Positions 1,170 through 21,149 of a stretch of DNA of 64,000 nt are shown one piece after another. The notes beneath the pieces are model-generated. The model was not told the origin of the DNA, did no database searches, and worked only from the letters and a program-made list of their open reading frames with translations. Positions within the stretch are counted from its first letter, which is position 1; every line of letters starts with the position of its first letter. This stretch comes from Brachyspira pilosicoli (GTDB lineage Bacteria; Spirochaetota; Brachyspiria; Brachyspirales; Brachyspiraceae). The stretch is taken from positions 310,001 to 374,000 of the forward strand of contig NZ_JAWLPU010000002.1 of NCBI RefSeq assembly GCF_036997485.1, written 5' to 3'. A program made the position numbers and the translations under genes.

Positions 1170-1532
1170 ATGCCTAAGAAAACTATATTAGTGCTTGATG
1201 ATGAAAAAAGCATTAGAACACTTTTCGAAGAAGAGTTTAGAGATGAGGGATATAATGTAGTATCCACAGATAGCGGCGAAGAAGCCTTGGAAATGATTAA
1301 TAAAGATAATCCACATATAGATTTAATAACATTAGATATAAAAATGCCTAAAATGGACGGATTAGACTTCCTTGGAAAGGTGCGTGAAAATCATAGAGAA
1401 TTACCTATTATAATATGTACGGCTTATAATAATTATAGACATGAGTTTCAAGTATGGAATGCAGATGGATATATATTAAAATCTGGTAATCTCACAGAAA
1501 TTAAAGATAAAATAAAAAGGCTAATAGGATAA
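1170..1532 (+). CDS. Receiver-only response regulator (CheY-like)
   Basis: A single 120-residue REC domain with no output domain. The acidic pair D10/D11, the phospho-acceptor D56 (LDIKMP), T84 and K104 are all in place, so it should be phosphorylated. It probably acts by protein-protein contact, like CheY or Spo0F. It has a strong promoter, and its stop codon overlaps the galT start by one base, so the two are co-transcribed. No kinase is adjacent. The Nudix-histidine kinase at 18125-19669 is one orphan kinase in the window, but there is no evidence linking the two. The link with galT may be only positional. Confidence 0.85.
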   Translation: MPKKTILVLDDEKSIRTLFEEEFRDEGYNVVSTDSGEEALEMINKDNPHIDLITLDIKMPKMDGLDFLGKVRENHRELPIIICTAYNNYRHEFQVWNADGYILKSGNLTEIKDKIKRLIG

Positions 1533-2530
1533 TGCCTCATATAAGAAAAGACCCTATCACTAAACAATCTGTTATTATAGCTTCTGAAAGAATGGGCAGA
1601 CCAAGTGATTATATTAATATTGAAGAAAATTATAATGTAGTAACTTCTGAAGCTACTTGTCCGTTTTGTAAAGGGAATGAAGATAAAACACCGGAACATT
1701 CTACCATTATTTTTAATGATAAAAAAGAATGGATGGTAAGAATAGTACCAAATAAATACCCTATAATTGCACAAAGTAATCCTAATGAGCTGCCTAATAA
1801 AAATGATTTATTTGAAGCTGATATTTGTAAAGGATTTCATGATGTTATTATAGAAAACCCTAATCATAATTTTAATTATTATAATGCTACTGAAAAAGAT
1901 TTACTCTTTATATTTGAAGCTATAATAATGAGATTACAAGAGCTATCTAAAGAAAAAGACATGCTATATAGTTTGCTTTTTAAAAACTTTGGAAGAGAGG
2001 CAGGAGCTAGTTTAATACACTCACATGCTCAGATGATGACTACTCCTTTTATACCTATTCAAATAATGGAAGAAATATATGGTTCTTTAGAATATTATAA
2101 TGAAAATAATAAATGTGTTTATTGCAGTATGATAGAAGAAGAAAAAAAAATTAATGAAAGAGTGATATGCGAAAATGATGAGTTTATAGCTATATCCCCT
2201 TTCGCTTCAAAATCTCCATATCAAATTTATATATTGCCAAAAAAACATTCAGACAGTATAGTATATTCTGAAGACTGCATATCACAATTTGCAAGTATTG
2301 TTAAAGATGTATTTAACAGAATTAATAAAGTGCTTGGAGAAATTAGTTTTAATTATGTGCTTCATACACTTACGCCTGCATTAGAAAAAAAATACTCTCA
2401 TTCAAGTCATTGGTTTTTGGACATAATGCCTAAAATGAGCAAGCTTGCAGGATATGAGCTTGGAAGCGGTGTTTTTATAAACTCAATTACACCAGAAGAT
2501 GCTACAAAAGATTTAAAAAATGCTCTATAA
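1532..2530 (+). CDS. galT: Galactose-1-phosphate uridylyltransferase (HIT superfamily)
   Basis: A 332-residue protein with two CxxC zinc motifs (C43/C46 and C195/C198) and the active-site HxH motif H163-S-H165-A-Q, where the second histidine carries the nucleotidyl intermediate. RIVPNKYP and the C-terminal SHSSHWFLDIMPK also fit the GalT family. It would exchange UMP between UDP-glucose and galactose-1-phosphate in the Leloir pathway. ADP-glucose phosphorylases share this architecture and cannot be excluded, and galK and galE are not nearby. It follows the receiver protein with a one-base overlap and converges on prmA with 4 bp between stops. Confidence 0.8.
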   Translation: MPHIRKDPITKQSVIIASERMGRPSDYINIEENYNVVTSEATCPFCKGNEDKTPEHSTIIFNDKKEWMVRIVPNKYPIIAQSNPNELPNKNDLFEADICKGFHDVIIENPNHNFNYYNATEKDLLFIFEAIIMRLQELSKEKDMLYSLLFKNFGREAGASLIHSHAQMMTTPFIPIQIMEEIYGSLEYYNENNKCVYCSMIEEEKKINERVICENDEFIAISPFASKSPYQIYILPKKHSDSIVYSEDCISQFASIVKDVFNRINKVLGEISFNYVLHTLTPALEKKYSHSSHWFLDIMPKMSKLAGYELGSGVFINSITPEDATKDLKNAL

Positions 2531-14905: not shown

Positions 14906-15646
14906 CTATACACCGTTCCAAGAAGCAGCATTATTTTGATAAGCCCACTGATAAGTATTGTTTGCCCCTATCAAAACTTTTGCCAAAGCTGTACCATCAT
15001 AAAATATATAAAGACCATTAACTAAATACGGAGCATCATTATCAAAACCATTCATATTAGTAACAACAACTACATTATTAAAATTAGTCTGATATCCAAA
15101 ATACTGTACTTTCCATGCACCTGAAACATTAATCATATTACCATTAATTGTAGCAACAGTTCCAGCACCTGTAACATTTATATTATTGGCAGCGTCAATA
15201 GTTCCTGTGCCCTCCGGTCTTGGTATCACTGGTACCGCTGTGTTAATCTTTGTCTCAATATATTTTTCTTCTATAAGTTCATTTGTGCCGTATGCTGTTA
15301 CTGTTATAAAATATTTTGTGCCGTTTACAAAATTATAATTTGGAATCTCTATTGTAAAGTTAGTACGGGTATGATTTGTACCCTTTATAGTAGGAAGTGC
15401 TTGGGTTGTAGCATCTTTTATGGCATCATCTGGCTGATTCATATTTTCTGAAGTTTTGGCATATATATTAAATCCTGCAAAATCTGATGCTAATATTCCT
15501 GACCAAAAAGATATACTCACCTTACTATCTCCAGGTATAGCTTTTATTTCATAAGGCATATTATATTCATCTATTATAGTAACAAGCTCTTCGGCACAGG
15601 AACTGAAAAATATAGTAAATAGAATAAGCAAAAATATTTTCTTCAT
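14906..15646 (-). CDS. Lipoprotein with fibronectin III-like domain
   Basis: A 246-residue protein with signal peptide and lipobox FFSSC (C17). The region YEIKAIPGDSKVSISFWSGILASDFAGFNIYAKTSE looks like a fibronectin type III fold (SVSLSWxxxxxxDxxGYxIYR pattern), followed by a beta-rich C-terminus with VNGLYIFYDGTALAKV. It resembles its upstream neighbour (15649-16485) in leader, domain order and EEL/QEMNxPYEIKAI-like start, so the two are probably tandem duplicates. It is likely exposed in the periplasm or on the cell surface. The partner is unknown. Confidence 0.7.
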   Translation of the reverse strand: MKKIFLLILFTIFFSSCAEELVTIIDEYNMPYEIKAIPGDSKVSISFWSGILASDFAGFNIYAKTSENMNQPDDAIKDATTQALPTIKGTNHTRTNFTIEIPNYNFVNGTKYFITVTAYGTNELIEEKYIETKINTAVPVIPRPEGTGTIDAANNINVTGAGTVATINGNMINVSGAWKVQYFGYQTNFNNVVVVTNMNGFDNDAPYLVNGLYIFYDGTALAKVLIGANNTYQWAYQNNAASWNGV

Positions 15647-15648
15647 CT

Positions 15649-16485
15649 TTAATAACTTAATATGTCGGCACTAATCTGATAACAGTAATCTGCTACTATA
15701 CTATTAACACCGTTAACACTCCTTACAAATATCTTGGCATAATAATTTGCATTATTTTTATTAATCTTTATTAAATATAATCTATCAGCAATAACCTCCA
15801 AACTCTCTGTAGTATATCCTTCAGTTGGAGGAACTACAACATCATAAAGAGAAGTACCAGCCACTCGCTGCACAGACCATGTTTCATTTGCTGCTTGAGG
15901 ACTAGAAAAATAAAGCTTATTATTATTTAATGTCAAATTGGCTAAATTACCCTCTGAAAAAACTATAGTAGTATTAGCTGTGACAGTTTGATTTAATGCT
16001 TCTGGCCTTGGTGTCGCCATCTTTACATAATTATCATAATAATAATAACTTTCATTTTGAGGCGTTATTTGATAAGAACTCACCCACACATATATAGGTA
16101 TGCCGTTTCTTATCTCAGTTTCTGGAAGAAGTGAAATTTCTGTAATATTACTTCCTGTATAATAAATATTTTTTTCTATCGTAAAAGTAAATGTTTGCAA
16201 AGTTGTGCTTCTTGTACTTACTATAGTAGGAATTGTTTTTTGCTGGCTATAAACTCTATATATCCTCGGATTAACACTGTCTCCAAAATATATATTGTAT
16301 CCGCTAAACGCTGGTTCATTATTTTGTGCCTGAAACTCTATAACTATTTTTTTATCCATGGGAGTAATCTTTGTTATAAAGGGCTGATTCATCTCTTGTG
16401 TAATGCTGGTAATATCCGGAAGTCCGCAAGAAACAAAAATAATTAAAAATAAAACATACACAATAACTTTAACAAAATAATTCAT
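15649..16485 (-). CDS. Lipoprotein with fibronectin III-like domain (paralogue of next gene)
   Basis: A 278-residue protein with lipobox FVSC (C20). After the leader comes MNQPFITKITPMDKKIVIEFQAQNNEPAFSGYNIYFG, the same fibronectin III-like pattern as the gene at 14906-15646. The C-terminal half has the same 'value printed after label' beta-rich layout (NLTLNNNKLYFSS, SLEVIADRLYLIKI). The two genes are 2 bp apart and form one transcript. No function is known to me. Confidence 0.7.
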   Translation of the reverse strand: MNYFVKVIVYVLFLIIFVSCGLPDITSITQEMNQPFITKITPMDKKIVIEFQAQNNEPAFSGYNIYFGDSVNPRIYRVYSQQKTIPTIVSTRSTTLQTFTFTIEKNIYYTGSNITEISLLPETEIRNGIPIYVWVSSYQITPQNESYYYYDNYVKMATPRPEALNQTVTANTTIVFSEGNLANLTLNNNKLYFSSPQAANETWSVQRVAGTSLYDVVVPPTEGYTTESLEVIADRLYLIKINKNNANYYAKIFVRSVNGVNSIVADYCYQISADILSY

Positions 16486-17266: not shown

Positions 17267-17300
17267 GGCTTAATCTTTTTATTTAAGATTAAGCCTTTTT
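17267..17300 (+). terminator. Intrinsic terminator after the barrel gene
   Basis: An 11-bp perfect stem GGCTTAATCTT (17267-17277) / AAGATTAAGCC (17285-17295) with a 7-nt loop, followed by TTTTT. Confidence 0.9.
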
Positions 17301-17556: not shown

Positions 17557-17585
17557 TTGATATAATATCATTATAATGGTATACT
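17557..17585 (+). promoter_or_regulatory. Promoter of the RsbW-like / Nudix-kinase operon
   Basis: TTGATA (17557-17562), a 17-bp spacer and TATACT (17580-17585), with transcription starting near 17592. A perfect 13-bp inverted repeat frames the -10 box: its left arm lies in the -35/spacer and its right arm starts at about +1. This looks like an operator. Confidence 0.6.
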
Positions 17586-17617: not shown

Positions 17618-18100
17618 GTGGAAAAGTATATACTTGACAATGATTTAGACAAAATCAGCAAACTCATAGAAAATATATGCCTAAAAATAAATAAATATAT
17701 AACAGATATAGACCTTTTTTCATCAGCATTGTATGAAGTAATAATAAATGCTATAGAACATGGAAATCTTAATATATTATATGAGCAAAAAAAAGAATGG
17801 CTACAAAAAAATATATATAATAAAAAATTAAAAGAATTATTGAAAAGTGAACTTGCTAAGAATACTAATATAGAATTGACTTTAGATATTAATGAAAAAG
17901 AAAATAATATAACAATTAAAGTTAAAGATAATGGAGAAGGCTTTAATATAAAAAGAGCATTAAAATCAATTAAAGATGATGGTTTTACAAGAGAAAGCGG
18001 AAGAGGAATTATAATAATAAAATCATATTTTGATGATGTAAAACATAATAGAAAAGGAAATGTTATTACACTCATTAAAAGATTCGATAAAAATATATAA
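17618..18100 (+). CDS. RsbW-like ATP-binding protein (HATPase_c_2)
   Basis: A 160-residue protein. SALYEVIINAIEHGN is the N box and KVKDNGEGFN the G1 box, and SGRGIIIIKSYFDDV is the G2 region. This is the GHKL fold of anti-sigma serine kinases such as RsbW/SpoIIAB. Family members phosphorylate STAS-domain antagonists or act as output domains of switches, but no STAS or PP2C partner is in the window. Translation starts at GTG 17618, the only start with an SD (AGGG at 17604-17607) at workable distance. It is followed 24 bp later by the Nudix-histidine kinase gene, so the two probably form one signalling operon. Confidence 0.78.
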   Translation: MEKYILDNDLDKISKLIENICLKINKYITDIDLFSSALYEVIINAIEHGNLNILYEQKKEWLQKNIYNKKLKELLKSELAKNTNIELTLDINEKENNITIKVKDNGEGFNIKRALKSIKDDGFTRESGRGIIIIKSYFDDVKHNRKGNVITLIKRFDKNI

Positions 18101-18124: not shown

Positions 18125-19669
18125 ATGTCTAATAAAAAAAAAGTTAAAGATACTAAATTTTTTCATAAATCTCCTGAAATAAAATTGGATACTGGGTTTG
18201 TTACATTAGAGAGATTTGTTGCTATAAATGAATATGATGACGGAAGTTTTTCAAAAGAATATAATTGTGATATTATTAACAGAAAAGGCTCTGATGCTGT
18301 TATAATAGTTCCATACGCTTACATAGACAATCAAATGCATGTGCTTATGATTAAAAATTTCAGACCAGTAGTTTATTATAAAGAAAAAGTATTAAATAAT
18401 AAAAATACTGATGAAATAGATGAAAATATTATGTCATTTTTAGAGTTTCCTGCGGGAATGCTTGAAGAAGATGAACTTAATATGAAAGACAGTAATATGG
18501 GTATAAGAAAATGCGCCCAAAGAGAATTGGAAGAAGAGACTGGATATAGTGTCAATATAAAAAACATTAAAGTTTTAGGTCATCAATATTATAGTTCTTC
18601 TGGAATTATTACAGAAAGGATAAATATTGCAACATGTAATATAACAGGGTTAAAACCTAAAAAAGTAAAAACTGATGGCTCTGTTATGGAAGAAAATATT
18701 GATTCTTTTTTCATAGAGTTCAATGAGGCTATAAAATGGTGTAAAGAAGGCATAATAAAAAATGCAGGTACAGAGATAGGCTTAAACAGACTTTATTTCT
18801 CAATACTCTATGAACAGCAAAAAAAGCATAGCGATATTTTGCAAAAAAGATTAGTTTCTTTATTTAATGAAATAAACTCTCTAAAAAAGAATGTTAATTA
18901 TTATAATAAACTTATAAGGGAGTTCAAAGCAACTATCACTCATGAACTTAGACATCCATTTACAGAGATAATGGGTTATATTAATTTATTAAAGAAAAGA
19001 ACTCTCGATGAAGAAAAAAAAGAAGAAGCTATTAATGTTATATCAAGAAGTATAAAAAAATTATATGACAATAATAATAATTTAATACAGATTGCTATTA
19101 AAGATGATGAGAGCTATAGTTATACTTCTGAATTCAATGTAGAGGACGAATTAAACTCAATAATAGAAGGGTATAAAATTTTATACCCAAAGGATATTAA
19201 AACAGAAATAGCAATAGAAGAAAATTGTAAAACTTTAATAGGATATAAAGAAAGATTTAGATTGATAATGGAAGGTATAGTTTCTAATGCATTTAAATTT
19301 ACAAAGTTCGGTACAATATCTATAAATGTTAGAATGCTTGACCCTATTGAAACTAAAGTTATAGATTTATCTCCAGACTTATTTAATTATCATTCTATGC
19401 AAAACATTATTCCAAATGAAATAGAAATTACAGTAAAAGATACAGGTAAAGGAATAAAGCAAAGCAAATTAAAGAAAATATTTATACCATTCTATCAAAG
19501 CGACTCAAGATTTGAAAGAGAATATGGCGGTATAGGAATAGGTTTATCTGTAGTCAAAGATCTTCTTGATACTATGCAAGGCGCCATTGCAATAGATAGC
19601 TCTGAAGGTGCTGGTACTATAGTAAAATTAAGAATACCTTTTGGAGTTGTAAACACTTCCAAAAATTAA
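18125..19669 (+). CDS. Nudix hydrolase domain fused to a histidine kinase
   Basis: A 514-residue soluble protein with no signal or membrane segment. Residues ~20-225 form a Nudix domain of the ADP-ribose pyrophosphatase type: LEFPAGM at 106-112, then R133-E-L-E-E-E138-T-G-Y, which matches the REUxEExGU core of the Nudix box, with about eight extra residues between G111 and the RE pair. Residues ~235-255 look like a coiled-coil linker. HisKA follows with THELRHPFTE (phospho-acceptor H273), then HATPase_c with N388 (SNAFKFTKFG), D439-T-G-K-G-I, an F box and GGIGIGLS (468-474). All kinase motifs look intact. The fusion suggests that a nucleotide metabolite controls phosphorylation, but that is inference; so is whether the Nudix site still hydrolyses. 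No cognate response regulator is adjacent. Confidence 0.85.
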   Translation: MSNKKKVKDTKFFHKSPEIKLDTGFVTLERFVAINEYDDGSFSKEYNCDIINRKGSDAVIIVPYAYIDNQMHVLMIKNFRPVVYYKEKVLNNKNTDEIDENIMSFLEFPAGMLEEDELNMKDSNMGIRKCAQRELEEETGYSVNIKNIKVLGHQYYSSSGIITERINIATCNITGLKPKKVKTDGSVMEENIDSFFIEFNEAIKWCKEGIIKNAGTEIGLNRLYFSILYEQQKKHSDILQKRLVSLFNEINSLKKNVNYYNKLIREFKATITHELRHPFTEIMGYINLLKKRTLDEEKKEEAINVISRSIKKLYDNNNNLIQIAIKDDESYSYTSEFNVEDELNSIIEGYKILYPKDIKTEIAIEENCKTLIGYKERFRLIMEGIVSNAFKFTKFGTISINVRMLDPIETKVIDLSPDLFNYHSMQNIIPNEIEITVKDTGKGIKQSKLKKIFIPFYQSDSRFEREYGGIGIGLSVVKDLLDTMQGAIAIDSSEGAGTIVKLRIPFGVVNTSKN

Positions 19670-19671
19670 TT

Positions 19672-20142
19672 TTATTCCATATAAGCCATATAAGCAGATA
19701 ATACTGTTATGCTATCTTCTTCATTGCTTTGATTTTCTTCGGAATAATCGAAGTATGTAGACAAAAGTGCATAATCACTGTAAACATCTTCGCTATATAC
19801 ATTCTCTTCTTGTTCTTGCGAAATAGTTGTTGAAGCTATTATTGGAGAAGATGCTGTATTATTATTATTGTTAATGACTACGCCTATTCCAACAAATATT
19901 AAAAGCATAGCTGCTATAGAAGCAATATAAGGCACGAATTTAAATTTCTTTTTAGAATTATTTACTTCTATAGGCATCTTCCCTGTTAAAATAGATGACA
20001 TAGCAAAAATTTCTTCTTTAAACTTTCTGCATTTAGCACATTCATGCAAATGATTTTCCATTTCCAATATTTCTTCATCATTTAAATCATCATCTTTATA
20101 TCTGCTAATAAGCATTTCATAATACTCATGTGTGTTGTTCAT
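19672..20142 (-). CDS. Anti-sigma factor with zinc-finger (ZAS type)
   Basis: A 156-residue protein. The N-terminal domain has H31-x3-C35-x2-C38 (HLHECAKC), the ZAS motif that binds ECF sigma factors. One transmembrane helix (about 70-88) follows, then an acidic Ser/Tyr-rich extracytoplasmic tail. It should hold the adjacent sigma factor at the inner membrane until an envelope signal arrives. Its start overlaps the sigma gene stop (ATGA), fixing the start. The stop is 2 bp from that of the convergent Nudix-kinase gene. Confidence 0.85.
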   Translation of the reverse strand: MNNTHEYYEMLISRYKDDDLNDEEILEMENHLHECAKCRKFKEEIFAMSSILTGKMPIEVNNSKKKFKFVPYIASIAAMLLIFVGIGVVINNNNNTASSPIIASTTISQEQEENVYSEDVYSDYALLSTYFDYSEENQSNEEDSITVLSAYMAYME

Positions 20143-20693
20143 AAAGTTACCCCCATTTTTTTTATTATTTCTAATAATTTCTTTCTTGCCCTAAATATCC
20201 TTGTTCTTACGGTATTAACAGGCAAGTCCAATTTCTCAGATATCTCAGTATAAGAATAATTCTCATATTCTGCCATCATAAGAGGTATTCTAAAATCATC
20301 TTCCAATTTAGATAAACTCTCGGCTATAATTATTTTATTTATACTATCATTATCATGAGCTTCCTGCATCTGGGCATTTCTATATTCTTTAAGTCTGTAT
20401 CTCTTTTCTCTCTCTTTTTTTCTTATATGATCAACTGCCCTATTGAAAGAAACCCTATAAAGCCAAGTATAAATCTTAGACCTTCCTTCAAAGCTCTCCC
20501 TCTTTATATAAAAACTCACAAAAACATCTTGTACAATCTCTTCTGCCTCATCATAATTAGAAATAAGAGAATATACTAAATTAATTAAAGGTTTTTTATA
20601 AGCCTCCATAAGCTCTTTGAAAGCTTCTTCATCTCCTTTTTTAAAGGCCTCTAAAAAATTGTTTTCATCAAACGCCATCTCTACACCACTCAT
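20139..20693 (-). CDS. ECF RNA polymerase sigma factor (RpoE-like)
   Basis: A 184-residue protein of group 4 sigma-70 architecture. Region 2 contains NYDEAEEIVQDVFVSFYIKRESFEGRSKIYTWLYRVSFNRAVDHIRKKER (the DAEDLVQEVFL-like helix and the RTWLYRIARN-like helix). Region 4 ends LDLPVNTVRTRIFRARKKLLEI. Regions 1.1 and 3 are absent. It is followed by its anti-sigma factor (4-bp overlap) and preceded by a Spy-like periplasmic gene. The operon promoter at 21200-21228 matches the recognition pattern of this sigma class, so autoregulation is likely. Confidence 0.9.
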   Translation of the reverse strand: MSGVEMAFDENNFLEAFKKGDEEAFKELMEAYKKPLINLVYSLISNYDEAEEIVQDVFVSFYIKRESFEGRSKIYTWLYRVSFNRAVDHIRKKEREKRYRLKEYRNAQMQEAHDNDSINKIIIAESLSKLEDDFRIPLMMAEYENYSYTEISEKLDLPVNTVRTRIFRARKKLLEIIKKMGVTL

Positions 20694-20702
20694 AAAAAAT
20701 AA

Positions 20703-21149
20703 TTACCTCATTTTGCAATTACGAAGCTGAGATCTTTGCTGAGGTGTTAATACATTTATTATATCTAAATCTCGAACCATTTTCAAATAATCTCTTTCTG
20801 CCTCGTAGTCTTTTTTAGACTTAATAAGATTCTTTAGCATATTTCTGTCTGGATTATCTTTAATAAGTTCTTCTCTTATATTATAATCTATTTTTTCTAT
20901 TTCCAACCTAATGCTTTCTTCTTCCTGAACAAATTTAATAGCTATTTCATAAACTTTTTTTGTTTGTTCTTCAGTTAAGACTATACCTGCCATTTGCAGA
21001 AAACGTAAAGCATCAGGTCCCAATTTATCAGTTCCTCTATGCATTCCTCTTCCACGCATCATTCCTCTCCCATGCCCAGGTGCAGGAGGTTGAGCAATAA
21101 CGAGTGATGAAAATAATAATATAAATAATAATACAAACCTTTTTTTCAT
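20703..21149 (-). CDS. Spy/CpxP-like periplasmic protein (LTxxQ motif)
   Basis: A 148-residue protein with an N-terminal signal peptide ending VIAQ. A Gly/His/Met/Arg-rich stretch (GHGRGMMRGRGMHRG) follows, then an all-helical domain with two LTxxQ motifs, VLTEEQTKKV and LTPQQRSQL. This is the Spy/CpxP/CnrX fold, a periplasmic chaperone or sensor of envelope or metal stress. The His/Met-rich segment suggests metal binding (inference). It is the first gene of the sigma/anti-sigma operon, 10 bp before the sigma gene, so it is probably the sensor, the target, or both. Confidence 0.8.
   Translation of the reverse strand: MKKRFVLLFILLFSSLVIAQPPAPGHGRGMMRGRGMHRGTDKLGPDALRFLQMAGIVLTEEQTKKVYEIAIKFVQEEESIRLEIEKIDYNIREELIKDNPDRNMLKNLIKSKKDYEAERDYLKMVRDLDIINVLTPQQRSQLRNCKMR

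Follow-up and report, generated by a model that had tools for sequence, protein, structure and literature searches.

A Nudix domain as the putative sensor half of a cytoplasmic histidine kinase conserved in the Brachyspirales

The sensor domains of histidine kinases are mostly non-catalytic binding modules. An open reading frame of Brachyspira pilosicoli, in which a Nudix hydrolase domain precedes a histidine kinase, raises the question of whether such a fusion is real and what a domain of enzymatic type does at the input end of a signalling protein. The frame occupies positions 18125 to 19669 on the plus strand of the window, i.e., the whole stretch of 64,000 nucleotides that was analysed, and is a single uninterrupted gene from ATG to stop, which encodes 514 amino acids. 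A first-pass annotation had described it as a fusion of a Nudix domain with a histidine kinase; the coordinates were exact, and three Pfam domains score above their curated cut-offs within the one reading frame, namely NUDIX (residues 107-156, E = 6.7e-6), HisKA (PF00512, residues 265-323, E = 4.2e-8) and HATPase_c (PF02518, residues 375-506, E = 4.6e-19). Joined reading frames, or a sequencing or assembly artefact fusing two genes, can be ruled out with a negligible residual chance, since the frame is single here and intact orthologues with the identical fusion are found in 31 independent assemblies, which represent all 31 Brachyspirales genomes searched. These full-length orthologues belong to two families and share 40-96% identity; the closest named ones are 96% identical and come from B. 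pilosicoli. The Brachyspira genome that contains the window measures 2.7 Mb. The fusion has not been lost in any of the 31 genomes.

From the N to the C terminus, the protein consists of the Nudix domain (residues 1-232), a continuous helix, the HisKA domain with H273 and the HATPase_c domain, and by every sequence test run it is a HisKA-type histidine kinase. The HisKA dimerisation and phosphoacceptor domain recognised by Pfam spans residues 263-325 (18911-19099), with the codon of H273 at 18941-18943; both the LIREF stretch and the H-box H273-E274-L275-x-H277-P278 are invariant. The HATPase_c domain (residues 333-508; 19121-19648), also a Pfam match, had been called complete, which is borne out by the residues of its N, G1, F and G2 boxes, all of them invariant in the 31 sequences. 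Over the kinase half as a whole, invariance extends to H273, E274, N388, K391, D439, G441, G443, F456, G469, G471 and G473. One of the most conserved stretches is a family-specific element of the ATPase domain, D-x-SPDLFNYH (residues 414-423; 19364-19393), which is nearly invariant throughout the order, with D414 and P417 to H423 never varying, and which matches no histidine-kinase motif known to us. The predicted structure is in keeping with the earlier remark that the protein has no membrane segment, as it accounts for the chain with a Nudix fold (first 213 residues) and a kinase and contains no spare hydrophobic helix. Sequence, conservation and predicted fold all give good support to a cytoplasmic histidine kinase whose sensor half is a Nudix domain.

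The Nudix half appears to be of the ADP-ribose/NDP-sugar pyrophosphatase type, to which Pfam, TIGR00052, the AlphaFold2 model, the structural alignment and a subfamily profile all point. Its core comprises residues 57-232 (18293-18820) and is preceded by an N-terminal beta segment (residues 1-56; 18125-18292), which in the alignment with whole ADPRase and NudK chains is the counterpart of the N-terminal part involved in the domain swap of ADPRase/NDPSase family dimers (PMC4629899). The NCBIfam model TIGR00052 (YffH/AdpP) matches residues 22-222 with an E-value of 1.2e-17 and 64.1 bits, which is below the curated cut-off of 79.55, and the solved proteins nearest to the subfamily profile are NudK (E = 1.2e-13) and ADPRase (E = 2.1e-12). 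In the AlphaFold2 model, the Nudix half mostly reaches pLDDT values of 75-95, and residues from 1-9 to 231 superpose on whole ADPRase and NudK chains. Aligned along its entire length with E. coli NudK, E. coli ADPRase and Bdellovibrio NDPSase, it gives Z-scores of 18.4-18.6 and deviations of 2.9-3.4 Å over 179-192 residues; with a Z-score of 18.6 to solved Nudix pyrophosphatases, the predicted fold is a Nudix fold. The pTM of the whole monomer model is 0.47, at which the placing of the domains is not reliable.

The Nudix box (18455-18547) reads G111...R133-E134-x2-E137-E138-x-G140-Y141 and contains the REUxEExGU catalytic helix; R133-E134 to Y141, the EFPAGM stretch and H273 all sit where the first-pass annotation had placed them. 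The box deviates from the canonical G-x5-E-x7-R spacing, with 15 instead of 7 residues from E117 to R133. This insertion of about eight residues had been reported before, together with the concern that it could destroy the fold. The extra residues precede the catalytic helix, and since the excess differs between relatives (+5 to +9 in the fused proteins, with +8 here and +5 in the sister family; the standalone cousins have about +4 or more), the insert reads as a loop of variable length in the subfamily. Disruption of the Nudix fold is ruled out by this length variation, the confident model and the end-to-end structural match. In the Nudix half, R80, E107, G111, R133, E134, E137, E138, E164, D184, E189 and E190 are invariant in the 31 sequences, as is G140. 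A DGSVMEE loop (residues 184-190; 18674-18694), whose M188 is also invariant among the fused proteins, aligns to the loop of NudK and ADPRase that gates the catalytic base. The invariance of both the Nudix catalytic residues and the kinase motifs indicates that both halves are under selection; the two domains diverge at broadly similar rates, the linker is less constrained, and both halves look functional.

The identity of the ligand can be approached through residues associated with specificity. A D-x-K motif has been proposed as a marker of NDP-sugar hydrolases (PMC4629899). The fused proteins carry N-A-[GVA] or N-G-A at this position and the enterobacterial ADPRase D-N-A-A-S, a likeness which gives a mild hint towards ADP-ribose. 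This hint is countered at position 159, however, where the proline of the SPG motif, which is found in ADPRases and in the sister genera, is replaced by serine in Brachyspira proper (26 of the 31 sequences); the exchange may alter specificity or activity. Since the fold matches ADPRases and the GDP-mannose pyrophosphatase equally well, ADP-ribose has the rank of a candidate, and NDP-sugars stay candidates beside it.

The closest relatives of the Nudix half are 29 standalone Nudix proteins with a DGSVMEE loop from Planctomycetota, Myxococcota and unplaced bacteria, with which it shares 30-36% identity, the DGSVMEE and Y-x-C-D motifs and the extended box loop. These cousins differ in being unfused, in keeping the D-x-K motif (D-M-K or D-A-K) and in having lost the box arginine in those that were aligned. 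Close by on the same strand, 26 of the 29 loci have a gene of the Gfo/Idh/MocA type and 25 one of the radical-SAM type, families which were identified on representatives; in NCBIfam, the radical-SAM enzyme is matched best by prokaryotic viperin, tungsten-cofactor maturase and MoaA, in each case far below the cut-off. We know of no description of a pathway that combines a DGSVMEE Nudix protein with these two enzymes. The operon was dropped as a clue to the substrate of the kinase, as a search of ten Brachyspirales genomes for the two neighbours yielded just weak generic matches and no clear orthologue.

Among 393 Spirochaetota genomes, the Nudix subfamily of the kinase is restricted to the 31 Brachyspirales and is missing from the other approximately 360 genomes, one weak generic match aside. 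The Nudix domains of the fused proteins group in a single clade (support 100/100), which makes it most likely that the fusion arose once, before the two families split. The first-pass annotation had considered that the architecture might prove to be common and already characterised. A scan of 84,980 species, each represented by one genome, relied on two short peptide patterns including the SPDLFNYH motif and was not exhaustive; the full-length relatives that it returned came from Brachyspirales only. In addition, searches of full-text literature that is open access rather than by subscription (Nudix and histidine kinase, NrtR, Brachyspira two-component systems) retrieved no description of a Nudix-histidine kinase. 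The rarity of the architecture is judged from homology searches with this family, and unrelated fusions may exist.

The first-pass annotation had further compared the protein with NrtR-type transcription factors and had offered hydrolysis of the signal during sensing as one of its options. The layout of Nudix input, helix and output supports the comparison; however, the state of the active site does not, because the Nudix domains of NrtR and AraR have impaired Nudix boxes (PMC4666351), whereas the box is intact here and its catalytic glutamates do not vary in any of the 31 sequences. Among the options offered, hydrolysing the signal while sensing it fits better for this reason, and with its active site intact, the domain would likely cleave the ligand. 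A Nudix domain that, like those of NrtR and AraR, serves purely to bind its ligand and has no useful catalysis would account for the common layout, the loss of the specificity-associated SPG proline in Brachyspira proper and the longer box loop, but would leave R133, E134, E137, E138, E189 and E190, which never vary, at odds with the impaired boxes of both regulators, and we consider it unlikely.

We favour a soluble, dimeric sensor kinase which is gated by a Nudix input of the ADP-ribose/NDP-sugar type and has its output in trans, and assign this reading a probability of roughly 0.6. An NDP-linked metabolite (ADP-ribose or an NDP-sugar) would bind together with Mg2+ between the N-terminal beta segment and the Nudix core, the DGSVMEE catalytic loop would close, and the last Nudix helix would move. 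In the AlphaFold2 model, this helix runs unbroken into the signalling helix (residues 214-262; 18764-18910) and on into HisKA, residues 214-289 forming one continuous helix. The motion could travel along it into the HisKA bundle and alter the autophosphorylation of H273, with both halves presumably contributing to the dimer. As an analogous precedent, ligand binding to AraR shifts a 'Nudix switch' region, and the output domain rotates via a hinge helix (PMC4666351). The intact active site would probably cleave the ligand, which would render the signal self-terminating, and an unlinked response regulator would receive the phosphoryl group in trans.

Control could also run in the opposite direction. 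The enzyme half would then be under the control of the kinase half, the Nudix hydrolase would be switched on or off by phosphorylation or ATP binding, and the protein would be a regulated NDP-X hydrolase and not a sensor. However, Nudix domain, helix, HisKA and ATPase are arranged from input to output as is normal for histidine kinases, the protein has no receiver domain, and its HisKA and ATP motifs are of the transmitter type. Even in view of the invariant Nudix active-site residues, the absence of an adjoining response regulator and the presence in the same genome of a receiver domain with an enzyme as its output (REC-LpxC), this reversal seems improbable. In the Nudix-gated kinase, regulation would pass from the Nudix half to the kinase half.

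The kinase is the second gene of an apparent operon. The preceding gene (17618-18100, plus strand) ends 24 bp upstream and encodes an RsbW-like ATPase of 160 amino acids with a HATPase_c_2 domain (Pfam, E = 6.6e-13). Upstream of it lies a promoter-like site on the plus strand, TTGATA-17-TATACT with a TG extension (17557-17585), which was recognised by its match to the consensus alone, and a terminator-like hairpin, seen in the sequence as an 11-bp stem and a T run (17267-17295, plus strand), parts the operon from the gene before. The partner possesses the N, G1 and G2 boxes of the HATPase_c_2 domain and reaches 17-27 bits against the RsbW/SpoIIAB equivalog cut-offs of 135-155. The pair is kept in all Brachyspiraceae examined except one lineage (G010), with a gap of 4-39 bp in the loci compared. 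In the sister family, the partner is absent, and the kinase start is overlapped by a lipoprotein-like gene, whose copies in the two genomes of this family are homologous. Since neither G010 nor the sister family has it, the partner is not essential to the kinase; in the Brachyspiraceae, the co-expressed ATPase would likely act in the same pathway.

Whether the output itself is a partner switch, in which the kinase and the RsbW-like ATPase form a circuit that is completed by the five STAS proteins and the REC-SpoIIE phosphatase encoded in the genome, appears doubtful. The tight gene pair and the presence of STAS and REC-SpoIIE proteins agree with such a circuit, as does a REC-HATPase_c_2 fusion that is among the nearest relatives of the partner in other spirochaetes; a HATPase_c_2-cNMP-binding fusion is a further homologue there. 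However, G010 and the sister family keep the kinase without the partner, the operon contains neither a STAS nor a sigma gene, and there is no obvious way for a histidine kinase to act on a receiver-less RsbW-like protein. On the other side of the kinase gene, separated by 2 bp and convergent with it, genes for an ECF sigma factor, a zf-HC2 anti-sigma-like membrane protein and a Spy/Metal_resist-like protein are located on the minus strand (19672-21149). They are adjacent to the kinase in part of the ten loci compared, lie on the opposite strand and were treated as neighbours rather than members of the pathway. Two further adjoining genes of the window (14906-16485, minus strand) encode lipoprotein-like proteins with similar FN3-like sequence and match no Pfam family above the cut-off.

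The B. pilosicoli genome encodes five sensor-type kinases besides two CheA proteins. A response-regulator gene adjoins three of the five; the Nudix kinase and a GAF-HisKA-HATPase_c kinase are without one. Receiver domains gave 15 hits in the genome. Possible outputs of the Nudix-gated kinase are a REC-LpxC fusion, the REC-SpoIIE phosphatase, single-domain receivers and the RsbW-like partner. REC-LpxC is encoded outside the window (G000:C3:290933-292213, corresponding to L051:562-1842; REC E = 2.9e-32, LpxC E = 4.3e-70), is the sole strong match of its kind in the genome and suggests that lipid A synthesis is under phosphorylation control. It occurs in 31 of 31 Brachyspirales (in one genome a contig end leaves just a fragment) and in full length in two other spirochaetes. 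As these two lack the Nudix kinase, and as no locus has a telling kinase neighbour, REC-LpxC was rejected as the cognate regulator and kept as a lead. Elsewhere in the window, a single-domain receiver gene (1170-1532, plus strand) overlaps the start of a gene for a GalT-like UDP-hexose transferase (1532-2530, plus strand) by one base, which is a second possible link between a receiver and a nucleotide-sugar enzyme.

More tentatively, and with rather low confidence, the kinase could be a self-resetting metabolic timer used throughout the order: the Nudix input would sense and hydrolyse an NDP-linked metabolite, and the output would go to an unlinked enzyme-type regulator such as REC-LpxC or to the RsbW-like partner. 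If REC-LpxC were the output, the kinase would be tied to lipid A synthesis. In general terms, the kinase may link signalling to how much of a nucleotide-linked metabolite is present, and, if true, this would give Brachyspira, spirochaetes of the gut that have few sensor kinases, a defined path from the metabolism of NAD or nucleotide sugars to signalling. A sensor with an intact, invariant hydrolase site also makes signal turnover as part of sensing directly testable.

Besides the standalone cousins, three groups of known systems resemble the protein in part. Like NrtR and AraR, it has an N-terminal, putatively ligand-binding Nudix input, which a helix connects with a signalling output, and would act as a cytoplasmic dimer; the output of these regulators is a winged helix, whereas here it is HisKA-HATPase_c. 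In the comparison with structures of the AdpP/NudK type, its Nudix half matches the full-length enzymes including their N-terminal segment. With ADPRase (NudF/AdpP) and the GDP-mannose pyrophosphatase NudK, it shares the fold over residues 1-231, the Nudix glutamates and the gating loop, but differs from these members of the TIGR00052 family in an identity of about 25%, a score under the family cut-off, the fusion to a kinase, the longer box loop and the absence of D-x-K. It is not filed as an AdpP/NudK enzyme because it lacks the canonical Nudix spacing and falls short of the TIGR00052 score; it may, however, work like one. Finally, soluble HisKA-type kinases have the same HisKA and HATPase_c domains with every H-box and ATP-site motif, but not the Nudix input, the SPDLFNYH element and the lack of a neighbouring response regulator. 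Beyond the first-pass annotation, the analysis adds the operon pairing with an RsbW-like ATPase, the absence of a neighbouring regulator and the finding that the active-site residues are intact, unlike those of NrtR and AraR.
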